The position numbers were made by a program, and so were the translations under genes. From the IMG/VR virus record IMGVR_UViG_3300027754_000244, positions 1 through 35,467 of that record: a stretch of DNA of 35,467 bases; one strand, written 5' to 3'. This document shows positions 9,040 to 17,450 of this stretch, in pieces. Source of the DNA: a virus. Position 1 is the first letter of the stretch. The number at the start of each line of letters is the position of its first letter. Below the pieces are notes generated by a model, which was given only the letters and a program-made list of their open reading frames with translations, was not told where the DNA came from and ran no database searches.

Positions 9040-9358
9040 AAAAGCATTACTTATAGAATATGAGTTGGAGTTTTTAGAAACAAAACTTCAAGAACTAAAG
9101 GAATACATACAACAAAATCCTTTCAGTTCTTTAGCTGATAGAATGGCTTGGAAAGAAACAAAGGGAGGAGGAGCTATTCCTATATGTATAGCTAATAAGG
9201 AAGCACAGAGAAAAGACCTTACACAAGCTTTGAAGGATTATGCAGAAATTTTACGTACAGTGGATGCTATGAGAGAAAAGGAAGAAAGTAAAATAGAGGT
9301 GAGAGGGAAAGGAGAACTAAGCACAATGGCTGAGGATTTCCTTAAAAACAGAAAATGA
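9026..9358 (+). CDS. Helical protein directly upstream of TerL (110 aa), candidate small terminase subunit
   Basis: Starts MAITKKALLIEYELEFLETK. It is almost entirely helical: a long N-terminal helix (YELEFLETKLQELKEYIQQN), a Gly-rich turn (KETKGGGAIPICI), then a second long helix (AQRKDLTQALKDYAEILRTV) and a basic C-terminus. Its stop overlaps the TerL start in an ATGA. Small terminase subunits are usually helical, of this size, and next to TerL, but no DNA-binding signature is seen, so TerS is only a candidate role. Confidence 0.72.
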   Translation: MAITKKALLIEYELEFLETKLQELKEYIQQNPFSSLADRMAWKETKGGGAIPICIANKEAQRKDLTQALKDYAEILRTVDAMREKEESKIEVRGKGELSTMAEDFLKNRK

Positions 9359-11391
9359 ATCTACAGAGTATAGACTATAAAGACTGGTTTATAAATCAGA
9401 AGCGTATTCCTGACAAAACTAGTGAGGAATTTAAAGGATTCTTTGATTTTCACAAAGACTTATGTTTGAATGGCTGTATGGTGGGGGGTGTTTACATCAA
9501 CCCATTTTTATATTGGCATTTGAATATGTGGCATACAGAGGTGGATGTTATTGATGATCGTGGAAGAATCTCTCAGAAATATGCCAATCCCTTTCTTAGA
9601 GACAATGAGTGGGTGATTACCAATGAGATAGATAGGGCCCAAATAGAAAAGAAGGGACTACTAATTCTTGGTATTAGACGTTTAGCTAAGTCTGTAATAG
9701 AGGCATCTTATGTATCTTGGGGTGCAACATTTGATGAAAACTCACAAAACATCATCTCTGGACTGAATGCTCCAGATATAAAACTAATTACAGATAAGAT
9801 AGATAAAGGACTCAACTTTTTACCAGAAGCTTGGAGGTGGCAGAGGATAGAAGATAATTGGAAGAATCAAGTGACGCTAGGAATTAAAACTAGAGGAGGA
9901 GAAAGAATCCCATTCTCTTCAATTCTTATTCGTAACCTTGATGAGGGTAATAATGAAGAGGCAATTGCAGGTACTAAACCACGTAAATTAATTATAGATG
10001 AAATTGGTAAAGGAAATTTCCTTAGAGGCTTACAAGCTGCTATTCCAGGTTTCACAACTCCTTTTGGCTGGGGATGTAGCCCCATTCTCACTGGTACTGG
10101 TGGTGACATGAAGAAATTCATGGATGCAAAGAGTCTTATGTTTGATGTAGACAATTTTAATTTCCTTTCTTATAATAATGAGAAGGATACATCTAGAATG
10201 CATGGACTCTTTATTGGACATAAATATAGAATGGAAGCTAAAGAAGAGTCTACGCTAGGAGCTTTCCTAAACGAACCTCTTTCCTCAGAACTATATAATG
10301 TAAGCATGTTAGTTTCTAATGAAGAGAAGGCTACAGAGATTACAGAGACAAACCTAACAAGACTTAAAAAGGCTGGAGACAGAATAGCATATTTAAAAGA
10401 GAAGATGTATTATCCACAGGAAGTGGATGACATATTCTTAAATGAGGATACAAATATATTTGATATTGAATCTGCTAAGAGACAGAAGAGCAGGTTGTTA
10501 CAACAAGAACGTACAGGAGTTCCTGTTATATTGTATGCAGAAGAAACTACAATTAAACATGAATTTACAGATAAGCTCCCTATATCCAACTTCCCTTTGA
10601 AGAACAGTGATATGAAAGATGCTCCTGTTATTGTGTACGAATTCCCTATAGAAAACCCTCCTTATGGATTATACGTAGCTGGAGTGGATCCTTACAGACA
10701 AGGTAAGTCTGCCTATAGCTCCTCCTTAGGAGCAGTTTATGTTTACAAGCGTATGCACGAACTTACAGGAGAAAAATACCAAGATATGTTTGTAGCTTCC
10801 TATGTAGCAAGACCTGATAAGAAAGAACATTGGGAGGAACAAGCTCGTTTACTAATCAAGTATTATAATGCTAGAACACTGTGTGAGAATGATGACATAT
10901 CCTTTATTGAATATATGAAAGCTAAAGGAGATGGTCACTATCTAGAGAAACAACCTCAATGGCTGATGGAGATTGTTCCTAATACAACAGTTAAAAGAGA
11001 ATTTGGAATTCATCGCTCAAGTCAGAAAATAATTGACTATCTTCACACATGCTTAAAGAAGTATATGGAAGAAACAATATATAAAGAGAAGGATGATGAT
11101 GGAAAGATTATAAGAGAGGTGCTAGGAGTTCATAAGATATTTGATCCTGTACTTCTTGAAGAAATCATCCAATACAATGATCAGGGTAACTTTGATAGAA
11201 TTATAGCAGCAGAACTAGCTATTGCTCAAGCACTTAAGATGGACCCAATCATGGGAAGAATAGGTGGAACAAGTGATCAGAGAGTAGCTTCTATGTATAC
11301 TAAAAGAAAAAAGAGTAAATTATTTACAGAATCAAGAGGAAGCACATTTGGACAAGCTCCTAGAAAATATAAAAATAAATTGTTTTCATAA
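9355..11391 (+). CDS. terL: Terminase large subunit (678 aa)
   Basis: The motor that pumps DNA into the prohead using ATP and cuts the concatemer. The ATPase part has a divergent Walker A, GIRRLAKS (about residues 106-113), and a Walker B, RKLIIDEIG (about 210-218). The C-terminal RNase H-like nuclease begins near residue 440 with YVAGVDPYRQGKS, whose Asp is a metal ligand candidate, and continues with a second acidic cluster CENDD (about 510-514). Length and neighbours (portal follows with a one-base TAATG overlap) are typical. Expected to act at the portal vertex. The start overlaps the stop of the helical protein at 9026-9358. Confidence 0.9.
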   Translation: MNLQSIDYKDWFINQKRIPDKTSEEFKGFFDFHKDLCLNGCMVGGVYINPFLYWHLNMWHTEVDVIDDRGRISQKYANPFLRDNEWVITNEIDRAQIEKKGLLILGIRRLAKSVIEASYVSWGATFDENSQNIISGLNAPDIKLITDKIDKGLNFLPEAWRWQRIEDNWKNQVTLGIKTRGGERIPFSSILIRNLDEGNNEEAIAGTKPRKLIIDEIGKGNFLRGLQAAIPGFTTPFGWGCSPILTGTGGDMKKFMDAKSLMFDVDNFNFLSYNNEKDTSRMHGLFIGHKYRMEAKEESTLGAFLNEPLSSELYNVSMLVSNEEKATEITETNLTRLKKAGDRIAYLKEKMYYPQEVDDIFLNEDTNIFDIESAKRQKSRLLQQERTGVPVILYAEETTIKHEFTDKLPISNFPLKNSDMKDAPVIVYEFPIENPPYGLYVAGVDPYRQGKSAYSSSLGAVYVYKRMHELTGEKYQDMFVASYVARPDKKEHWEEQARLLIKYYNARTLCENDDISFIEYMKAKGDGHYLEKQPQWLMEIVPNTTVKREFGIHRSSQKIIDYLHTCLKKYMEETIYKEKDDDGKIIREVLGVHKIFDPVLLEEIIQYNDQGNFDRIIAAELAIAQALKMDPIMGRIGGTSDQRVASMYTKRKKSKLFTESRGSTFGQAPRKYKNKLFS

Positions 11392-13970
11392 TGGCAATTA
11401 TAAGATATACAAAAGACGCAACAATTAGGTATGCCTATTTGAACATATTTCCTGACCAATTTAAAACTGATAAGGAGAAGCAAGATGAAAGTTGGATTAA
11501 AAACACAATGGACTATTTTGCTAATAAGGCATATGCTGAATATACAAAGAATAGAGACACCTTTGTTAAAAACTATGATTTGATGAAGGGAATTCTCAGA
11601 AGAGAAGACTTTTATCAAGAACCAGAGGTGAGAAGTTTTACAGATGTATTAACATCAGATCTTGCTCTTCCTGCATATGTTAAAATGTATTCTATCATCA
11701 CCACTCCTGTTAATGAGTTGGTAGGTGAAATATCTAAGAGACCTGATGCTTTTCGTGTCAAGGCTTTTGATGATGATAGTAAGTCTGAAGAGCTTGAGTT
11801 TAAGACAGGTATATTACAAGAGTATGTAATCAATCAAGCTAAACAAAAGATTCAAGAGAAAGCTGCCTTACAAGGAGAAGAGATTGATGATGAGCAATTA
11901 CAGCAAATGACAATGGACCAGGTGAAGGATAGTATTGACAGCTATACATCTATTGCTGAAAAATGGGCAAACCATATTCTTACAGCACAGAAAGCTGAGT
12001 TCAACACCAAAGAAAAGAGTGAAGATGCTTTCAGAGATATGTTAATATCTGCTAGGGAGTTCTATCATATATATGAAGATAATTCAAAACTTGGGTTTAA
12101 CATAGAAGTGGCTAATCCAAAAAATACATGGTTTTTAACAACACCAGATAGAAAATACATATCAGATCCAACAGGTAGGGTGCAAGGAGCGTATGCTGCT
12201 GGTACAGTGCAGGTGATGGAACTATCTGAAATTATTGAAGCTATTCCTGATCTTACTAAAGATGAAATAGATCATTTAAGAAGTTCATTACAGGATTATG
12301 GATTGATTAATGTACGTGAATCCAATCTTGGTAATCCTAATGCTATTCCTGGGAATGACTCCATACAATATGATACATATGATCCTCTTGTTCTACAAAC
12401 TAGAATGCTCATTGAATCAGAGATGAAGGAAAACAATGATGGTCTTAGAGATTTCTTAGGGCTAACGTCTAACGTTAGTAGTTTTGGTTATAAGTATGTA
12501 GTGGTGAGAGCTTATTGGATTTCTAAGAAAAAGATAGGCAAGCTTATATATTTAGATGAGATGGGTAATGAACAATCTCTACTTGTAGATGAACATTATA
12601 AATCAGGAACAATTCCTACACAACAATCATTAGAATGGGGATGGATTAACCAATGGTATCAGGGGACAAAGATTGGTCCAGACATCTATCATATTAAACC
12701 ATACAAATTATTAAACTACTGTCCTATCATTGGTCAGGTGTTTGAGGTGAAGAATACAGAAGCTAAAAGCTTAATAGATCTTATGAAGCCTTTTCAAGTT
12801 TTATATAATGTATGTATGAACCAGCTTTACAAACTTCTTGAGAAGGAGGTGGGTAAGGTGCAACTTATGTCTATTAGACACATTCCTATTCCTAAAGATG
12901 GAGATGCACAAGATGCTCTTGACATATGGGAAATGGAAGCTCGTAATAGAGGAGTGGTATTTGTTGATGATAGTCCAGAGAATTTAAAAGCTCCTTCTAG
13001 CTTCAATCAATTCACAAGTCTAGATCTTACACGTACACAAGAGATACAATCTCGTTATACACTAGCTCAACAATTAAAGAATGAGTGTTGGGAACTAATT
13101 GGTATGTCTAGACAAAGAATGGGAAGTGTATCAGCTAGCGAGAGTGCTACAGGAACTAATGCAGCTATTACACAAAGCTATTCTCAAACAGAACCATTGT
13201 TCATAGCTCATGAATATGTGTTAGGACAGCTCTACCAATCTATAATCGATGCATCTCTGTATGTAGAGAGTCAGAAGCCACAATCTACTATTTCCTATAT
13301 TACATCTCAAGGAGAATCTGCATTTGTACAAGTGAATGGTTCTGATCTTAAGTTTAGAGACTTGAAGGTGTATTTAACTAATAGACCAGAGGATCAAAAA
13401 ATGTTTAATGAGTTAAGAGGATTGTCCCAAGCTGTTATTCAGAATGGTGGAAGCTTGTCTGACATCATTGAATTGTATTCAACTGATTCTGTTCGTCAAA
13501 TGAAAAAGGTGTTTACAACTCTTAAGAGCAGACAAGAAGAATTAGAGATTACTAAATTACAACAACAGCAACAACAATTGGATCAACAGCAGCAACAAGC
13601 TGACGCTCAAATTCAAGCTGCTCAACAGCAACAACAAGAAAAAATGGCTCATGATGATTATCAAAATGAGTTGGATAGAATAAATAAGAAAGAGATTGCA
13701 TTAATTGCTGCTGAATCTAAAGGAGGCTTACCAGATGTAGATGAATCTGGAGCTCCTGATGTATTGGAAATCAACAAGTTATCATTAGAGCAATCAAAAG
13801 CTAGCAGAGAATATCAAACTAAAATGGCTGACATTCAATCTAAAAATACATTAGCTTCACAAAAGCTACAGGTAGAAAAAGAGAAACTACAGGTGGCTAG
13901 AGAAAACCAAGCAAATGATCTTGCTATAGCTAAAGAGAATGCCAAGGGTAGGAACAAGAAAACTAAATAA
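11391..13970 (+). CDS. Portal protein (859 aa)
   Basis: Forms the dodecameric ring at the unique head vertex through which DNA enters and leaves. The assignment rests on its place directly after terL, its large size as in crAss-like portals, and its overall helical and mixed layout (YFANKAYAEYTKNRD early; YPNN-like loop regions mid-protein). The C-terminal part is low-complexity and Gln-rich (about residues 723-755, runs of QQQQ) and then a charged coiled-coil tail (SKNTLASQKLQVEKEKLQVA). The Gln/Lys tail is reasonable for the inner crown or barrel of the portal, which faces DNA, but that is inference. The start shares one base with the TerL stop. Confidence 0.85.
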   Translation: MAIIRYTKDATIRYAYLNIFPDQFKTDKEKQDESWIKNTMDYFANKAYAEYTKNRDTFVKNYDLMKGILRREDFYQEPEVRSFTDVLTSDLALPAYVKMYSIITTPVNELVGEISKRPDAFRVKAFDDDSKSEELEFKTGILQEYVINQAKQKIQEKAALQGEEIDDEQLQQMTMDQVKDSIDSYTSIAEKWANHILTAQKAEFNTKEKSEDAFRDMLISAREFYHIYEDNSKLGFNIEVANPKNTWFLTTPDRKYISDPTGRVQGAYAAGTVQVMELSEIIEAIPDLTKDEIDHLRSSLQDYGLINVRESNLGNPNAIPGNDSIQYDTYDPLVLQTRMLIESEMKENNDGLRDFLGLTSNVSSFGYKYVVVRAYWISKKKIGKLIYLDEMGNEQSLLVDEHYKSGTIPTQQSLEWGWINQWYQGTKIGPDIYHIKPYKLLNYCPIIGQVFEVKNTEAKSLIDLMKPFQVLYNVCMNQLYKLLEKEVGKVQLMSIRHIPIPKDGDAQDALDIWEMEARNRGVVFVDDSPENLKAPSSFNQFTSLDLTRTQEIQSRYTLAQQLKNECWELIGMSRQRMGSVSASESATGTNAAITQSYSQTEPLFIAHEYVLGQLYQSIIDASLYVESQKPQSTISYITSQGESAFVQVNGSDLKFRDLKVYLTNRPEDQKMFNELRGLSQAVIQNGGSLSDIIELYSTDSVRQMKKVFTTLKSRQEELEITKLQQQQQQLDQQQQQADAQIQAAQQQQQEKMAHDDYQNELDRINKKEIALIAAESKGGLPDVDESGAPDVLEINKLSLEQSKASREYQTKMADIQSKNTLASQKLQVEKEKLQVARENQANDLAIAKENAKGRNKKTK

Positions 13971-13972
13971 TT

Positions 13973-14503
13973 ATGTTTGATAAACTGATTGAAATAATAA
14001 CTAATTGGTGGTTACAATTAACACCAATCATTATTATAAGAGATTATGAGGAAGCTGTTCTTCTTAGATTTGGAAGATTTAAAACAGTTTTTAAACCTGG
14101 CATGCATTTCAAAATCCCTTTATTTGATGAGGTGATAGATCAACATGTCGTTGTTACAACATTGAGTCTTGATGCTCAATCCCTATACACTAAGGACAAA
14201 CAGAATATTGTGGTGAAAGGACTTATTAAATATAAGATAGCAGACGTTAAAATATTTCTTCTTGAGGTTTATGATGCACAAGATGCCCTGTCAGATATGT
14301 CTCAAAGTATTATAAAAAATGTCATTATGTCTATGACCATGGATGAATGTACAGATTCTGAACTTGACAATACATTAACTAAGAAGGTGAGAGTGGAAGC
14401 AAAGAAATGGGGAGTTGAAGTTCAACAAGTGACACTTACAGATCTTGCTCCAATTAGAAGCTACAGGCTAATAAATGACAATTTTACAAACAAACTTGAT
14501 TAG
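13973..14503 (+). CDS. SPFH/Band-7 (stomatin/prohibitin-like) protein (176 aa)
   Basis: The motif EEAVLLRFGRFKTVFKPGMH followed by FKIPLFDEV (about residues 25-55) is the typical start of an SPFH/Band-7 domain, and the rest (VVTTLSLDAQSLYTKDKQNI, LSDMSQSIIKNVIM, WGVEVQQVTLTDL) follows the family pattern to about residue 165. The N-terminus has a short hydrophobic stretch (ITNWWLQLTPIIII) that could insert in or lie on the membrane. Family members form ring or cage oligomers at membranes. It lies two bases after the portal gene and before the scaffold, so it is made with the head proteins. The long C-terminal coiled coil of cellular homologues is missing. Confidence 0.85.
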   Translation: MFDKLIEIITNWWLQLTPIIIIRDYEEAVLLRFGRFKTVFKPGMHFKIPLFDEVIDQHVVVTTLSLDAQSLYTKDKQNIVVKGLIKYKIADVKIFLLEVYDAQDALSDMSQSIIKNVIMSMTMDECTDSELDNTLTKKVRVEAKKWGVEVQQVTLTDLAPIRSYRLINDNFTNKLD

Positions 14504-14623
14504 AGTGAATAAAGTTAATGCTATATTATATTGAATATTGATGAGTATAGTGCCTTCTCTCTTTGCTATTAATTATAAATAATATAATTTTACATTTCGA
14601 AACCAATTAAAAATCAACTACAT

Positions 14624-15865
14624 ATGGCAGAAAATATAGATAGTCCAAGTCTTTTTAGTATCCAAGATACTATGGAAATGGGAATGGGGAACCAACAACT
14701 CTTGAGTGATTTATTTGCTCCAGAAATTGCTACATCTAATCCTGATGATATTCAGAAAATAGATAAACCTTCTCCTCCTCCTGAAAAAAAGACAGAAGCT
14801 CCTGCAAAAGCAGCTGCTCCAACTACTACAGAAGAAACTCCAGCAATTGATGAAAAGAAATCTATTACAGATTTCTTAATGGATGATGAAGAAGAAAAAG
14901 AAGATGAAGACGAACCAGTTAAAAAGGTTTCTCCAATTTCTACAACACCCAACACTGAGAACAATGAAGAAGAGGGTGAATCAAATCAATTCACTGCTCT
15001 TTCTAAAGATCTTTTAAAATTAGGAGTGTTTTCTAAAGAAGAAGATGAAGATGATGTTCCAATAAACAATGCTGAAGAATTTTTAGAGAGATTCAACGCT
15101 GAGAAAAAGAAAGGAGCTATTGAAGTGGTAAACAACTTCATAGGTCAATTTGGAGAAGAATATCAACAAGCGTTTGATGCCATATATGTAAAAGGAGTTA
15201 ATCCTAAAGATTATTTTGGAGCATTTAACCAAATACAATCTTTTGCTGATATGGATCTTGCACAGGAAGCAAACCAAGTGAAAGTGATTACGCAAGCACT
15301 CACTGACCAAGGCCTTGATCCTGAAGATGTTACAACAGAAGTAGAAAGACTAAAGAACTATGGTGATCTTGAAAGCGTTGCTGGAAAGCATCATAAGGTT
15401 TTAATAAAGAAAGAAGCTGTAAAGCTTCAACAACTAGAACAAGAAAAAGAGGTTCAATTACAACAACAAGCTCAATATAAGCAACAGTATTCCACAAATG
15501 TAAATCAAGTTTTACAGGATAAGTTGAAGAACAAAGAGTTTGATGGTATTCCTCTTAATCCAAAATTGGCTGGTGAACTACAAGATTTCTTAACAATAGA
15601 TAAGTATAAAACAAACTCTGGTGAAACATTAACAGAATTTGATAAAACCATCCTAGAACTTAAGCGTCCTGAGAATCATGAAAAGAAGGTGAAGATAGCT
15701 TTATTATTAAAGATATTAGAAAAAGATCCTACACTATCAACAATTCAAAAGACTGGTATCACCAAAAAATCAAATGAATTGTTTGGAGAGGTGGCCAGAC
15801 AGGCAAGCAAAAGTGCTGTGAAATCTCAAAAACCTGCTAATGTCTCCACATCATGGTTTCAATAA
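14624..15865 (+). CDS. Probable scaffolding protein (413 aa)
   Basis: Located between portal and major capsid genes. Starts MAENIDSPSLFSIQDTMEMG. The N-terminal 150 residues are disordered and rich in Pro, Lys and acidic residues (DDEEEKEDEDEPVKK, around residues 87-101). The central and C-terminal part is helical, with a Gln-rich coiled coil (LQQLEQEKEVQLQQQAQYKQ, about 268-288) and a Lys-rich end. An acidic, elongated, helical protein in this place is what scaffolding proteins look like; they direct capsid assembly and then leave. A structural cargo protein is the alternative. A 120-base gap precedes the gene and may hold a promoter I do not recognise. Confidence 0.7.
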   Translation: MAENIDSPSLFSIQDTMEMGMGNQQLLSDLFAPEIATSNPDDIQKIDKPSPPPEKKTEAPAKAAAPTTTEETPAIDEKKSITDFLMDDEEEKEDEDEPVKKVSPISTTPNTENNEEEGESNQFTALSKDLLKLGVFSKEEDEDDVPINNAEEFLERFNAEKKKGAIEVVNNFIGQFGEEYQQAFDAIYVKGVNPKDYFGAFNQIQSFADMDLAQEANQVKVITQALTDQGLDPEDVTTEVERLKNYGDLESVAGKHHKVLIKKEAVKLQQLEQEKEVQLQQQAQYKQQYSTNVNQVLQDKLKNKEFDGIPLNPKLAGELQDFLTIDKYKTNSGETLTEFDKTILELKRPENHEKKVKIALLLKILEKDPTLSTIQKTGITKKSNELFGEVARQASKSAVKSQKPANVSTSWFQ

Positions 15866-15896: not shown

Positions 15897-17450
15897 ATGG
15901 CAATTCAAACAATTCCAGGTTTAACTGGTTTTACTTACGCAAGAGTCGCTTCTATGGATGGACGTGCTGTAGGTAAATTAACAGACGCAAACCACTTGGA
16001 AAGTTTTCACTCTACTGAGCCAGCAGATTATGATAAAAAAATCATAAGTCTTTACACTCAGAGTTCTCTTTACAGTAATGATTTTTTAGACATGATTAAC
16101 AAGTCTACTCCTTACTACATTGATAATAATAGTGATGCTTGGAAGTGGCAGGTACAAGTTCCTTACAAGTTTCCAAAAATCATTGACATTCCAGTTAGCA
16201 CGCAAGAACTTACTAAACCTGGTATTGATGGTCAAGAGTTTCAATTAGTGATTGATACTAATGAGTTTTCTAAGAACGCTATCGTTTCTGTAGGTACTCG
16301 TCAGTATGGTCCTCGTTTTTATGTAATCAAAGATCCTCAACCTTGGAACATGGGATATTTGTATTCATTTACATTAGTAACAGACAATCCAACTGTAGAT
16401 TTCGTAAGCTCTACCTTTTTAAGAATAGGTATTGAACTTGAATTAGTTGATGCTGCTATTGGTGAGTTTGATCAAGACTTATTAGGATTACCACGTTTGG
16501 GTCAACAAATCACAATGTTTGAATCTTTAGGTTCTGCATATGGTTATGAGCACAAAATTACTGAGTGGGCTGATGATAAGATGTTAAGAGATAACAATGG
16601 TAAACCTTTAGATATTTTAGTTTATGCTCCTCAACGTAGGAATGAATTACCTTTAACTCGTCAAGATGTTAAGTGGGAACCATTTATTGAGTTCTGGATG
16701 CGTAAGTCTATGTTAGAATTAAAAGTTAAGCGTATGATCTGGGCTAAGCCTGGTACCGTAAAAACTAATGGTTCTAAGCAAGAATTAAAGCGTACGTCTG
16801 CTGGTGTATATCACAGAATGCGTAATAACGGTAACTTAGTACAATACAATCGTGGAGAATTTACAGCAAACTTGATTCGTTCAGTGTTTGGTGATTTGTT
16901 CTACAGACGTGTTGATGTTAAGGATCGTAGAGTTAAGATGTACACTAATGAAGCTGGGTTTGACGTGTTCCAACAAGCTTTAAAGAATGATGCATTAAAT
17001 TCTGGTTTAACTTTCATGGCTGATTCTGGTAATCGTTACATGCAAGGAGAAGGACAACACATCACTTACAACTTTGCATTCGATGCAATGGTTACACGTG
17101 AGACTGGTCGTGTTGAATTAATTCACTTAAAAGAATTAGACCTTCCTCAAACAAACTTAGAATTTGGACAAAACAAGAAGAGCACACCTGTATTTATGGT
17201 GTTTGATGTAAGCCCTATGAGTGATGGTTCATTAGTGAACAACATTCGTGAGGTACGCATGAAAGGTGCTCCTTCTATGACTTGGGGATATATTGATGGT
17301 ACTCGTAGTCACTTAGGCTTTGCTAAGTCTCAAGGTATGAGTTCTGCAAACAAATTCCCTGGTTATGAAATATGGATGAAAGATCGTTGTGATGTGTTCA
17401 TTGAAGATTTGTCTCGTACAGTCTTGATTGAAGAAATACCACAATTCTAA
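15897..17450 (+). CDS. Major capsid protein (517 aa)
   Basis: Forms the icosahedral head shell; the crAss-like MCP has an HK97-type fold. The call rests on size, place after the scaffold, and the crAss-like N-terminus MAIQTIPGLTGFTYARVASM, followed by GRAVGKLTDANHLESFHSTE and YTQSSLYSNDFLDMI. The leader AAAAAAATAACAAA gives A-rich initiation at the ATG. Arg codons are mostly CGT, about three times as many as AGA by rough count, while other genes use mainly AGA; this suits a highly expressed protein. Three RNA hairpins follow the stop (17457-17600). Confidence 0.85.
   Translation: MAIQTIPGLTGFTYARVASMDGRAVGKLTDANHLESFHSTEPADYDKKIISLYTQSSLYSNDFLDMINKSTPYYIDNNSDAWKWQVQVPYKFPKIIDIPVSTQELTKPGIDGQEFQLVIDTNEFSKNAIVSVGTRQYGPRFYVIKDPQPWNMGYLYSFTLVTDNPTVDFVSSTFLRIGIELELVDAAIGEFDQDLLGLPRLGQQITMFESLGSAYGYEHKITEWADDKMLRDNNGKPLDILVYAPQRRNELPLTRQDVKWEPFIEFWMRKSMLELKVKRMIWAKPGTVKTNGSKQELKRTSAGVYHRMRNNGNLVQYNRGEFTANLIRSVFGDLFYRRVDVKDRRVKMYTNEAGFDVFQQALKNDALNSGLTFMADSGNRYMQGEGQHITYNFAFDAMVTRETGRVELIHLKELDLPQTNLEFGQNKKSTPVFMVFDVSPMSDGSLVNNIREVRMKGAPSMTWGYIDGTRSHLGFAKSQGMSSANKFPGYEIWMKDRCDVFIEDLSRTVLIEEIPQF

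Follow-up and report, generated by a model that had tools for sequence, protein, structure and literature searches.

SPFH proteins and their membrane partners

Among the described SPFH/Band-7 systems, the stomatin/QmcA type (SPFH1), including the archaeal PH1510-PH1511 operon, and the HflK/HflC-FtsH system come closest to the phage locus described here. In stomatin-protease operons the SPFH gene lies next to a gene for a membrane protease, and co-evolution of stomatin/SPFH genes with NfeD-type proteases has also been found (PMC2636767). The HflK/HflC-FtsH system combines SPFH proteins with a membrane zinc metallopeptidase, and a coiled-coil hat closes the HflKC cage (PMC12048511). SPFH genes are also scattered among phages, for a reason called unclear in a 2026 paper (PMC13239085). 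Such phage SPFH/Band-7 proteins (phrog_200), encoded by the T4-like phages Aeh1, RB43 and 44RR, by DLP3, by Schitoviridae and by Skarpretter, have an unexplained role and a patchy presence within genera (PMC8540360, PMC1524935, PMC7326821, PMC13239085). They comprise 260-344 aa where a length was at hand, are encoded outside the head-operon slot considered below and have no known partner. A short, prohibitin-like form is encoded directly past the terminase large subunit gene of podovirus ctgrD200 (MW202733); its annotated start (L162:5935-6498 in MW202733.1) looks too late, and the ORF reaches about 187 aa. In the Crassvirales head module, as found in crAss001, cr10_1 and Flavobacterium phage Fpv1, the gene order is terminase, portal, a variable position, scaffold and major capsid protein (MCP), with the position past the portal gene of these phages occupied by a head-fibre gene, a peptidase gene or nothing, and by no SPFH gene. 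A literature search for SPFH in crAss-like phages found no report.

A minimal SPFH protein encoded between the portal and scaffold genes

The window analysed here is the whole stretch of 35,467 nucleotides of a viral genome (IMG/VR record IMGVR_UViG_3300027754_000244), and all features described are located on its plus strand. One gene run carries the genes for the terminase large subunit (9355-11391) and the portal (11391-13970; recognized by Pfam P22_portal, phrog_6547 and tblastn to crAss phages), followed by an ATG-initiated ORF of 176 codons designated SPFH-A (13973-14503), which starts 2 nt past the portal stop codon, a scaffold-like gene (14624-15865; assigned from its position and a weak match to phrog_16294) and the MCP gene (15897-17450; Crass_capsid PF23898, E=2e-28). 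Judged from the MCP profile, the crAss-like portal and this gene order, which is that of crAss001, cr10_1 and Fpv1, the window is a Crassvirales-like phage, and the location of the ORF between portal and scaffold, as given in an earlier note on this DNA, holds. Pfam and PHROG annotation of the slot neighbours examined revealed no NfeD as in SPFH-NfeD operons.

SPFH-A is a genuine SPFH/Band-7 protein, as that note had proposed from the sequence. Residues 21-160 (14033-14452) match Pfam Band_7 (PF01145, profile positions 2-147 of 176) with 92.9 bits and E=3.1e-26, exceeding the curated cut-off of 23.6 bits, and comparison with PDB sequences retrieved stomatin (2e-12), QmcA (2e-10), HflK (1e-8) and HflC (6e-8). 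An AF2 model built from an alignment of 38 relatives has a mean pLDDT of 79.5 and a pTM of 0.62, with residues 165-176 below 50, and reveals the SPFH1/SPFH2 fold; Foldseek matched it to human stomatin (1e-13) as well as to HflK/C, QmcA and prohibitin (range 1e-13 to 1e-9). Thus, similarity to HflK and HflC, with which a comparison had been suggested, is found in both sequence and fold, and the region of the PGxHFKIP motif resembles HflC in particular. SPFH-A also has in common with stomatin/QmcA the order of strands and helices and a short N-terminus that in the stomatins is membrane-associated. In SPFH-A this amphipathic, Trp-rich segment (aa 1-22, 13973-14038; AF2 helices 2-10 and 12-16) is weakly hydrophobic, with a maximal KD19 of 1.25 as compared to 3.0 in QmcA and a hydrophobic moment of 0.53. 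No classic transmembrane helix could be found there in the KD19 profile, and the segment is likely to serve as a peripheral or in-plane membrane anchor.

The main structural departure is at the other end. The AF2 model contains no coiled-coil helix, in line with the earlier observation that the usual coiled-coil tail is missing, and where cellular SPFH proteins have a long coiled coil, SPFH-A has a 16-aa tail of low pLDDT (14453-14500), conserved in the alignment of relatives and ending in ..RSYRLINDNFTNKLD. Since SPFH-A stops 16 residues past the SPFH core, it has neither the coiled coil of HflK/HflC (SPFH3) or flotillin type nor the C-terminal cage-forming region, and hence differs from HflKC in lacking the coiled-coil hat and from stomatin/QmcA in lacking the coiled coil and C-terminal region and in being phage-borne. 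In size it may fairly be called the shortest form of the fold, as in the earlier note, but it is not unique in this, since other phage forms are equally short or nearly so: SPFH-B, introduced below, has 173-175 aa, BFVD A0A6J7WFI0 has 173 aa and the ctgrD200 protein, about 29% identical to SPFH-A and from an unrelated phage, has about 187 aa. A length of exactly 176 aa is kept in 140 of the 148 relatives found, and the median dN/dS among relatives is 0.08 as compared to 0.106 for the portal; SPFH-A is therefore under purifying selection. Scans of genome contigs returned no cellular homologues or prophages for SPFH-A or SPFH-B.

The portal-scaffold junction as an exchangeable slot

Relatives were gathered from IMG/VR using the SPFH protein and three portal queries, and the suggested survey of this gene place in other crAss-like phages revealed a slot with four states, holding SPFH-A, a second family designated SPFH-B (27% identical to SPFH-A), a two-gene cassette or nothing. 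Empty slots leave 135-209 nt between portal and scaffold, and 64 nt in L176. The cassette replacing SPFH (L122:8064-8529, L136, L139 and L149) encodes an acidic protein of 78-83 aa and an approximately 84-aa HEHFH protein with HEHFHLKHPDWSE. Comparison of the L122 cassette with Pfam and PHROG gave no convincing match; the HEHFH protein is probably a second, soluble zinc-peptidase-like protein, and it was found nowhere else in the full genomes of relatives. In a tree of 104 distinct portals, 77 slots hold SPFH-A, 20 are empty, four hold the cassette and three SPFH-B, although such counts depend on the queries, as a portal query from an SPFH-lacking locus (L154) yielded 60 empty slots among 80 loci. 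The slot state changes 10 times on this tree, and for SPFH-A well-supported branches demand at least eight changes.

An SPFH gene is lacking in many relatives whose portals are 79-87% and whose MCPs are about 95% identical, and none was found elsewhere in the genomes (110-117 kb) of relatives with an empty slot. SPFH identity is only weakly coupled to portal identity (Spearman rho 0.32), and between L054 and L075 the portals are 92% but the SPFH proteins 69% identical; together these values suggest swapping of the SPFH gene. The gene is thus accessory, swappable cargo in a fixed slot reaching from the portal stop codon to the scaffold promoter, and it is not conserved with the head module. Because the slot gene is missing or replaced in relatives with the same head genes, a requirement in head assembly is unlikely, and the earlier suggestion that the protein recruits portals or proheads to the membrane finds no support in a gene exchanged at least eight times and present in the same family outside head operons.

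The slot is followed, ahead of the scaffold gene that forms its 3' border, by a conserved block of about 80 nt (14515-14593), read as TTAATGCTATATTA ... TTTG-N19-TAATTTTAC from an alignment of nine loci covering every slot type. Its invariant core, TTAATGCTATATTA, is kept in all slot states, and the version in the window is TTAATGCTATATTA...TTTG-N19-TAnnTTTTAC. The TTTG...TAnnTTTG arrangement is akin to Bacteroidota promoters, and the block is probably a late promoter for the scaffold and MCP genes. This assignment draws on conservation across relatives and not on statistics within the window, as an exact late-promoter-like query (TANNTTTTAC, 18-21 nt spacing) gave matches elsewhere only and not at the block.

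Three further variants of the slot were observed. In one sub-clade an extra gene of 66-68 aa (LEFRNPIPVVVE..) lies between portal and SPFH (L071:6882-7088, L076:7797-7997). Two SPFH genes are truncated, either naturally or as assembly artefacts, with loss of the N-terminal part in L131:3651-3953 and of the tail together with some of the promoter-like block in L046:2930-3430 (L046 and L104 being one contig).

A membrane HExxH protein as candidate partner

SPFH-B occurs also in phages without crAss-like head genes nearby (L167-L172, L174, L228, L238, L239), in some of which a predicted endolysin is encoded close to it (L168). At every such locus seen, a gene for an HExxH protein lies directly upstream of SPFH-B with a gap of -20 to +5 nt, resembling the stomatin-protease operons. 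The encoded proteins have 134-145 aa, a hydrophobic N-terminus and an HExxH with a downstream EE motif, and the two that were scanned both match phrog_1365, which PHROG labels as of unknown function. Searching from the HExxH side (61 loci), SPFH was adjacent at all non-crAss loci except L537, a weak match.

A profile of the SPFH-B-adjacent protein also matches SPFH-positive crAss-like genomes with E values of 1e-31 to 1e-57. In these, the HExxH gene is located on the strand opposite to SPFH, about 35-48 kb away circularly (measured in genomes of at least 105 kb). No HExxH gene was found in the 35-kb window or in short close relatives, which is uninformative because the usual position falls outside the window and, so far as checked, outside those contigs. 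The candidate partners have 134-161 aa and consist of an N-terminal helix and a peptidase-like domain only. Hence they differ from FtsH in their size of about 140 aa and in having no AAA ATPase domain, and from the partners of stomatins in being HExxH metallopeptidase-like and not of NfeD/ClpP type. H102, E103, H106 and E125 are conserved across 16 aligned homologues from SPFH-bearing phages, and the AF2 model (pLDDT 91.8) places the N-terminal helix at 2-26, the HExxH helix at 97-114 and the third Glu on the C-terminal helix. Foldseek of this model against PDB gave no fold match; from its motif and predicted helix arrangement the protein can be described as metallopeptidase-like. A hydrophobic N-terminus is present in 22 of 22 HExxH proteins from SPFH-bearing contigs and in none of four paralogues from SPFH-lacking genomes, and by eye several homologues have lipobox-like N-termini. 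The C-terminal domain is probably periplasmic. The hint of membrane proteolysis contained in the earlier note thus gains substance, with the data pointing to a phage-encoded membrane metallopeptidase-like partner rather than to the suggested shielding from host FtsH.

Among crAss-like genomes of at least 100 kb, the membrane HExxH protein is present in 12 of 13 with SPFH and in 0 of 13 without (Fisher p=2.7e-6, in a test that ignores kinship, with the SPFH-lacking genomes drawn from few clades); two of the latter carry shorter HExxH paralogues without the hydrophobic N-terminus. The exception, G017, has SPFH with no partner detectable in 112 kb. Starting from the HExxH side, five of six new contigs of at least 100 kb have SPFH (G068, G070, G074, G081, G097), and the sixth, G091, has HExxH and no SPFH, with no portal found there either. 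Three independent tree contrasts, including the close relatives G018/G002, are all concordant in most pairings (sign test p 0.25). In a ranking of 92 accessory families from 20 full genomes by concordance with SPFH, HExxH comes fifth, or second when soluble paralogues are excluded, and so clade structure explains part of the co-occurrence. The two proteins also covary in distance when portal distance is taken into account (partial Mantel r 0.53, p 0.0012, 17 genomes; r 0.60, p 0.0004 for SPFH-A only). In a core-genome control with nine genomes, SPFH and HExxH correlate at a level attained by the top 0.9% of gene pairs, although this share rises to 10% when the single SPFH-B genome is removed. 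Altogether the evidence favours the pairing but does not prove it.

The pairing is not general, because well-known phages carry either gene alone or both at separate places. In Det7 and Tunturi_3, SPFH and an HExxH relative are both encoded but lie apart. Of the remaining phages compared, Skarpretter, OLIVR1, Lbo-JY46 and ctgrD200 have only SPFH, and Horatius, Otaku, KMI5 and cr124_1 have only a distant HExxH (phrog_1365) relative.

Proposed function and alternative explanations

With a probability of roughly two in three, we consider SPFH-A to be a swappable accessory minimal SPFH protein that works with a phage-encoded membrane HExxH...E metallopeptidase-like protein, and not a head-assembly factor. 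SPFH-A would be expressed as the last gene of the terminase-portal run, and its product would form assemblies at the inner membrane, where, much as in the HflKC-FtsH, prohibitin-m-AAA and stomatin/QmcA-NfeD pairs, it may confine, recruit or regulate the peptidase; a physical partnership of the two proteins, their membrane location and the regulation of the peptidase would all belong to this model. More speculatively, the module might act on envelope proteins of the host or of a superinfecting phage, and might serve superinfection exclusion, counter-defence or lysis timing. A broader proposal, for which we see even odds, is that phages possess a two-part membrane module of their own, made up of an SPFH protein and a metallopeptidase and different from FtsH-HflKC and stomatin-NfeD. 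In it a minimal coiled-coil-less SPFH protein would be joined by a membrane-anchored HExxH peptidase of about 140 aa, and the module would be transferred among unrelated phages and would remodel the envelope proteome of the infected cell, for example to block superinfection or host defence.

Phage SPFH genes themselves were already known (PMC13239085, PMC8540360, PMC1524935), and the new elements are the metallopeptidase-like partner and the minimal coiled-coil-less SPFH protein. One phage SPFH family thereby obtains a testable partner, which suggests a reason for its retention, and a very small natural SPFH-protease pairing becomes available to study. The portal-scaffold junction of these crAss-like phages is a cargo slot, and therefore genes found there are not to be presumed head-building.

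The best surviving alternative, though an unlikely one, is a stand-alone moron acting on the host membrane, in which SPFH joins host SPFH/FtsH complexes as a dominant-negative or decoy subunit and lowers host FtsH proteolysis, with HExxH merely belonging to the same accessory pool. The missing coiled coil, by which host rings could be poisoned, and the strong similarity to HflK/C and stomatin would suit such a role, as would G017 and the other phages having SPFH without HExxH; however, the adjacency at every non-crAss SPFH-B locus seen, the sharp division of crAss-like genomes by co-occurrence and the distance covariation argue for the peptidase partnership. A virion or head-morphogenesis protein, located at the portal vertex or carried as cargo and docking portals or proheads at the membrane, is quite improbable: the gene does follow the portal gene, and in crAss001 the genes past the portal encode the head fibre gp21 and then the tail fibre gp22, but SPFH is missing from many relatives whose head proteins are almost the same, unrelated genes substitute for it in the slot and the same SPFH family lies outside head operons in unrelated phages. 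That SPFH is a neutral passenger, recently acquired and without function for the phage, is hardly credible despite its frequent absence and the two truncations, given a dN/dS below that of the portal, the near-constant length and the occupation of the same slot by a second SPFH family.

Additional observations

Cyanophage Lbo-JY46 of Leptolyngbya (L161/PP438436.1) is the highest-scoring phage-record match for both the portal and the MCP of the window, and carries, at a large distance from the head genes, a longer SPFH of 260 aa. MT835563.1 (L225/H2), filed as Bacteriophage sp., was rejected as a phage SPFH source since by eye it looks like bacterial DNA that contains an SPFH operon of the NfeD type. 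A small ORF that is MazG-like by eye (..YGTTL..LEEAMDA..YLEKL), located at G018:27411-27662 and in relatives, is present in 10 of 10 genomes with SPFH and in two of 10 without, and in L168 a gene resembling it (L168:7217-7423) is found two genes upstream of HExxH; it is possibly a third associate of SPFH and HExxH, or a coincidence.
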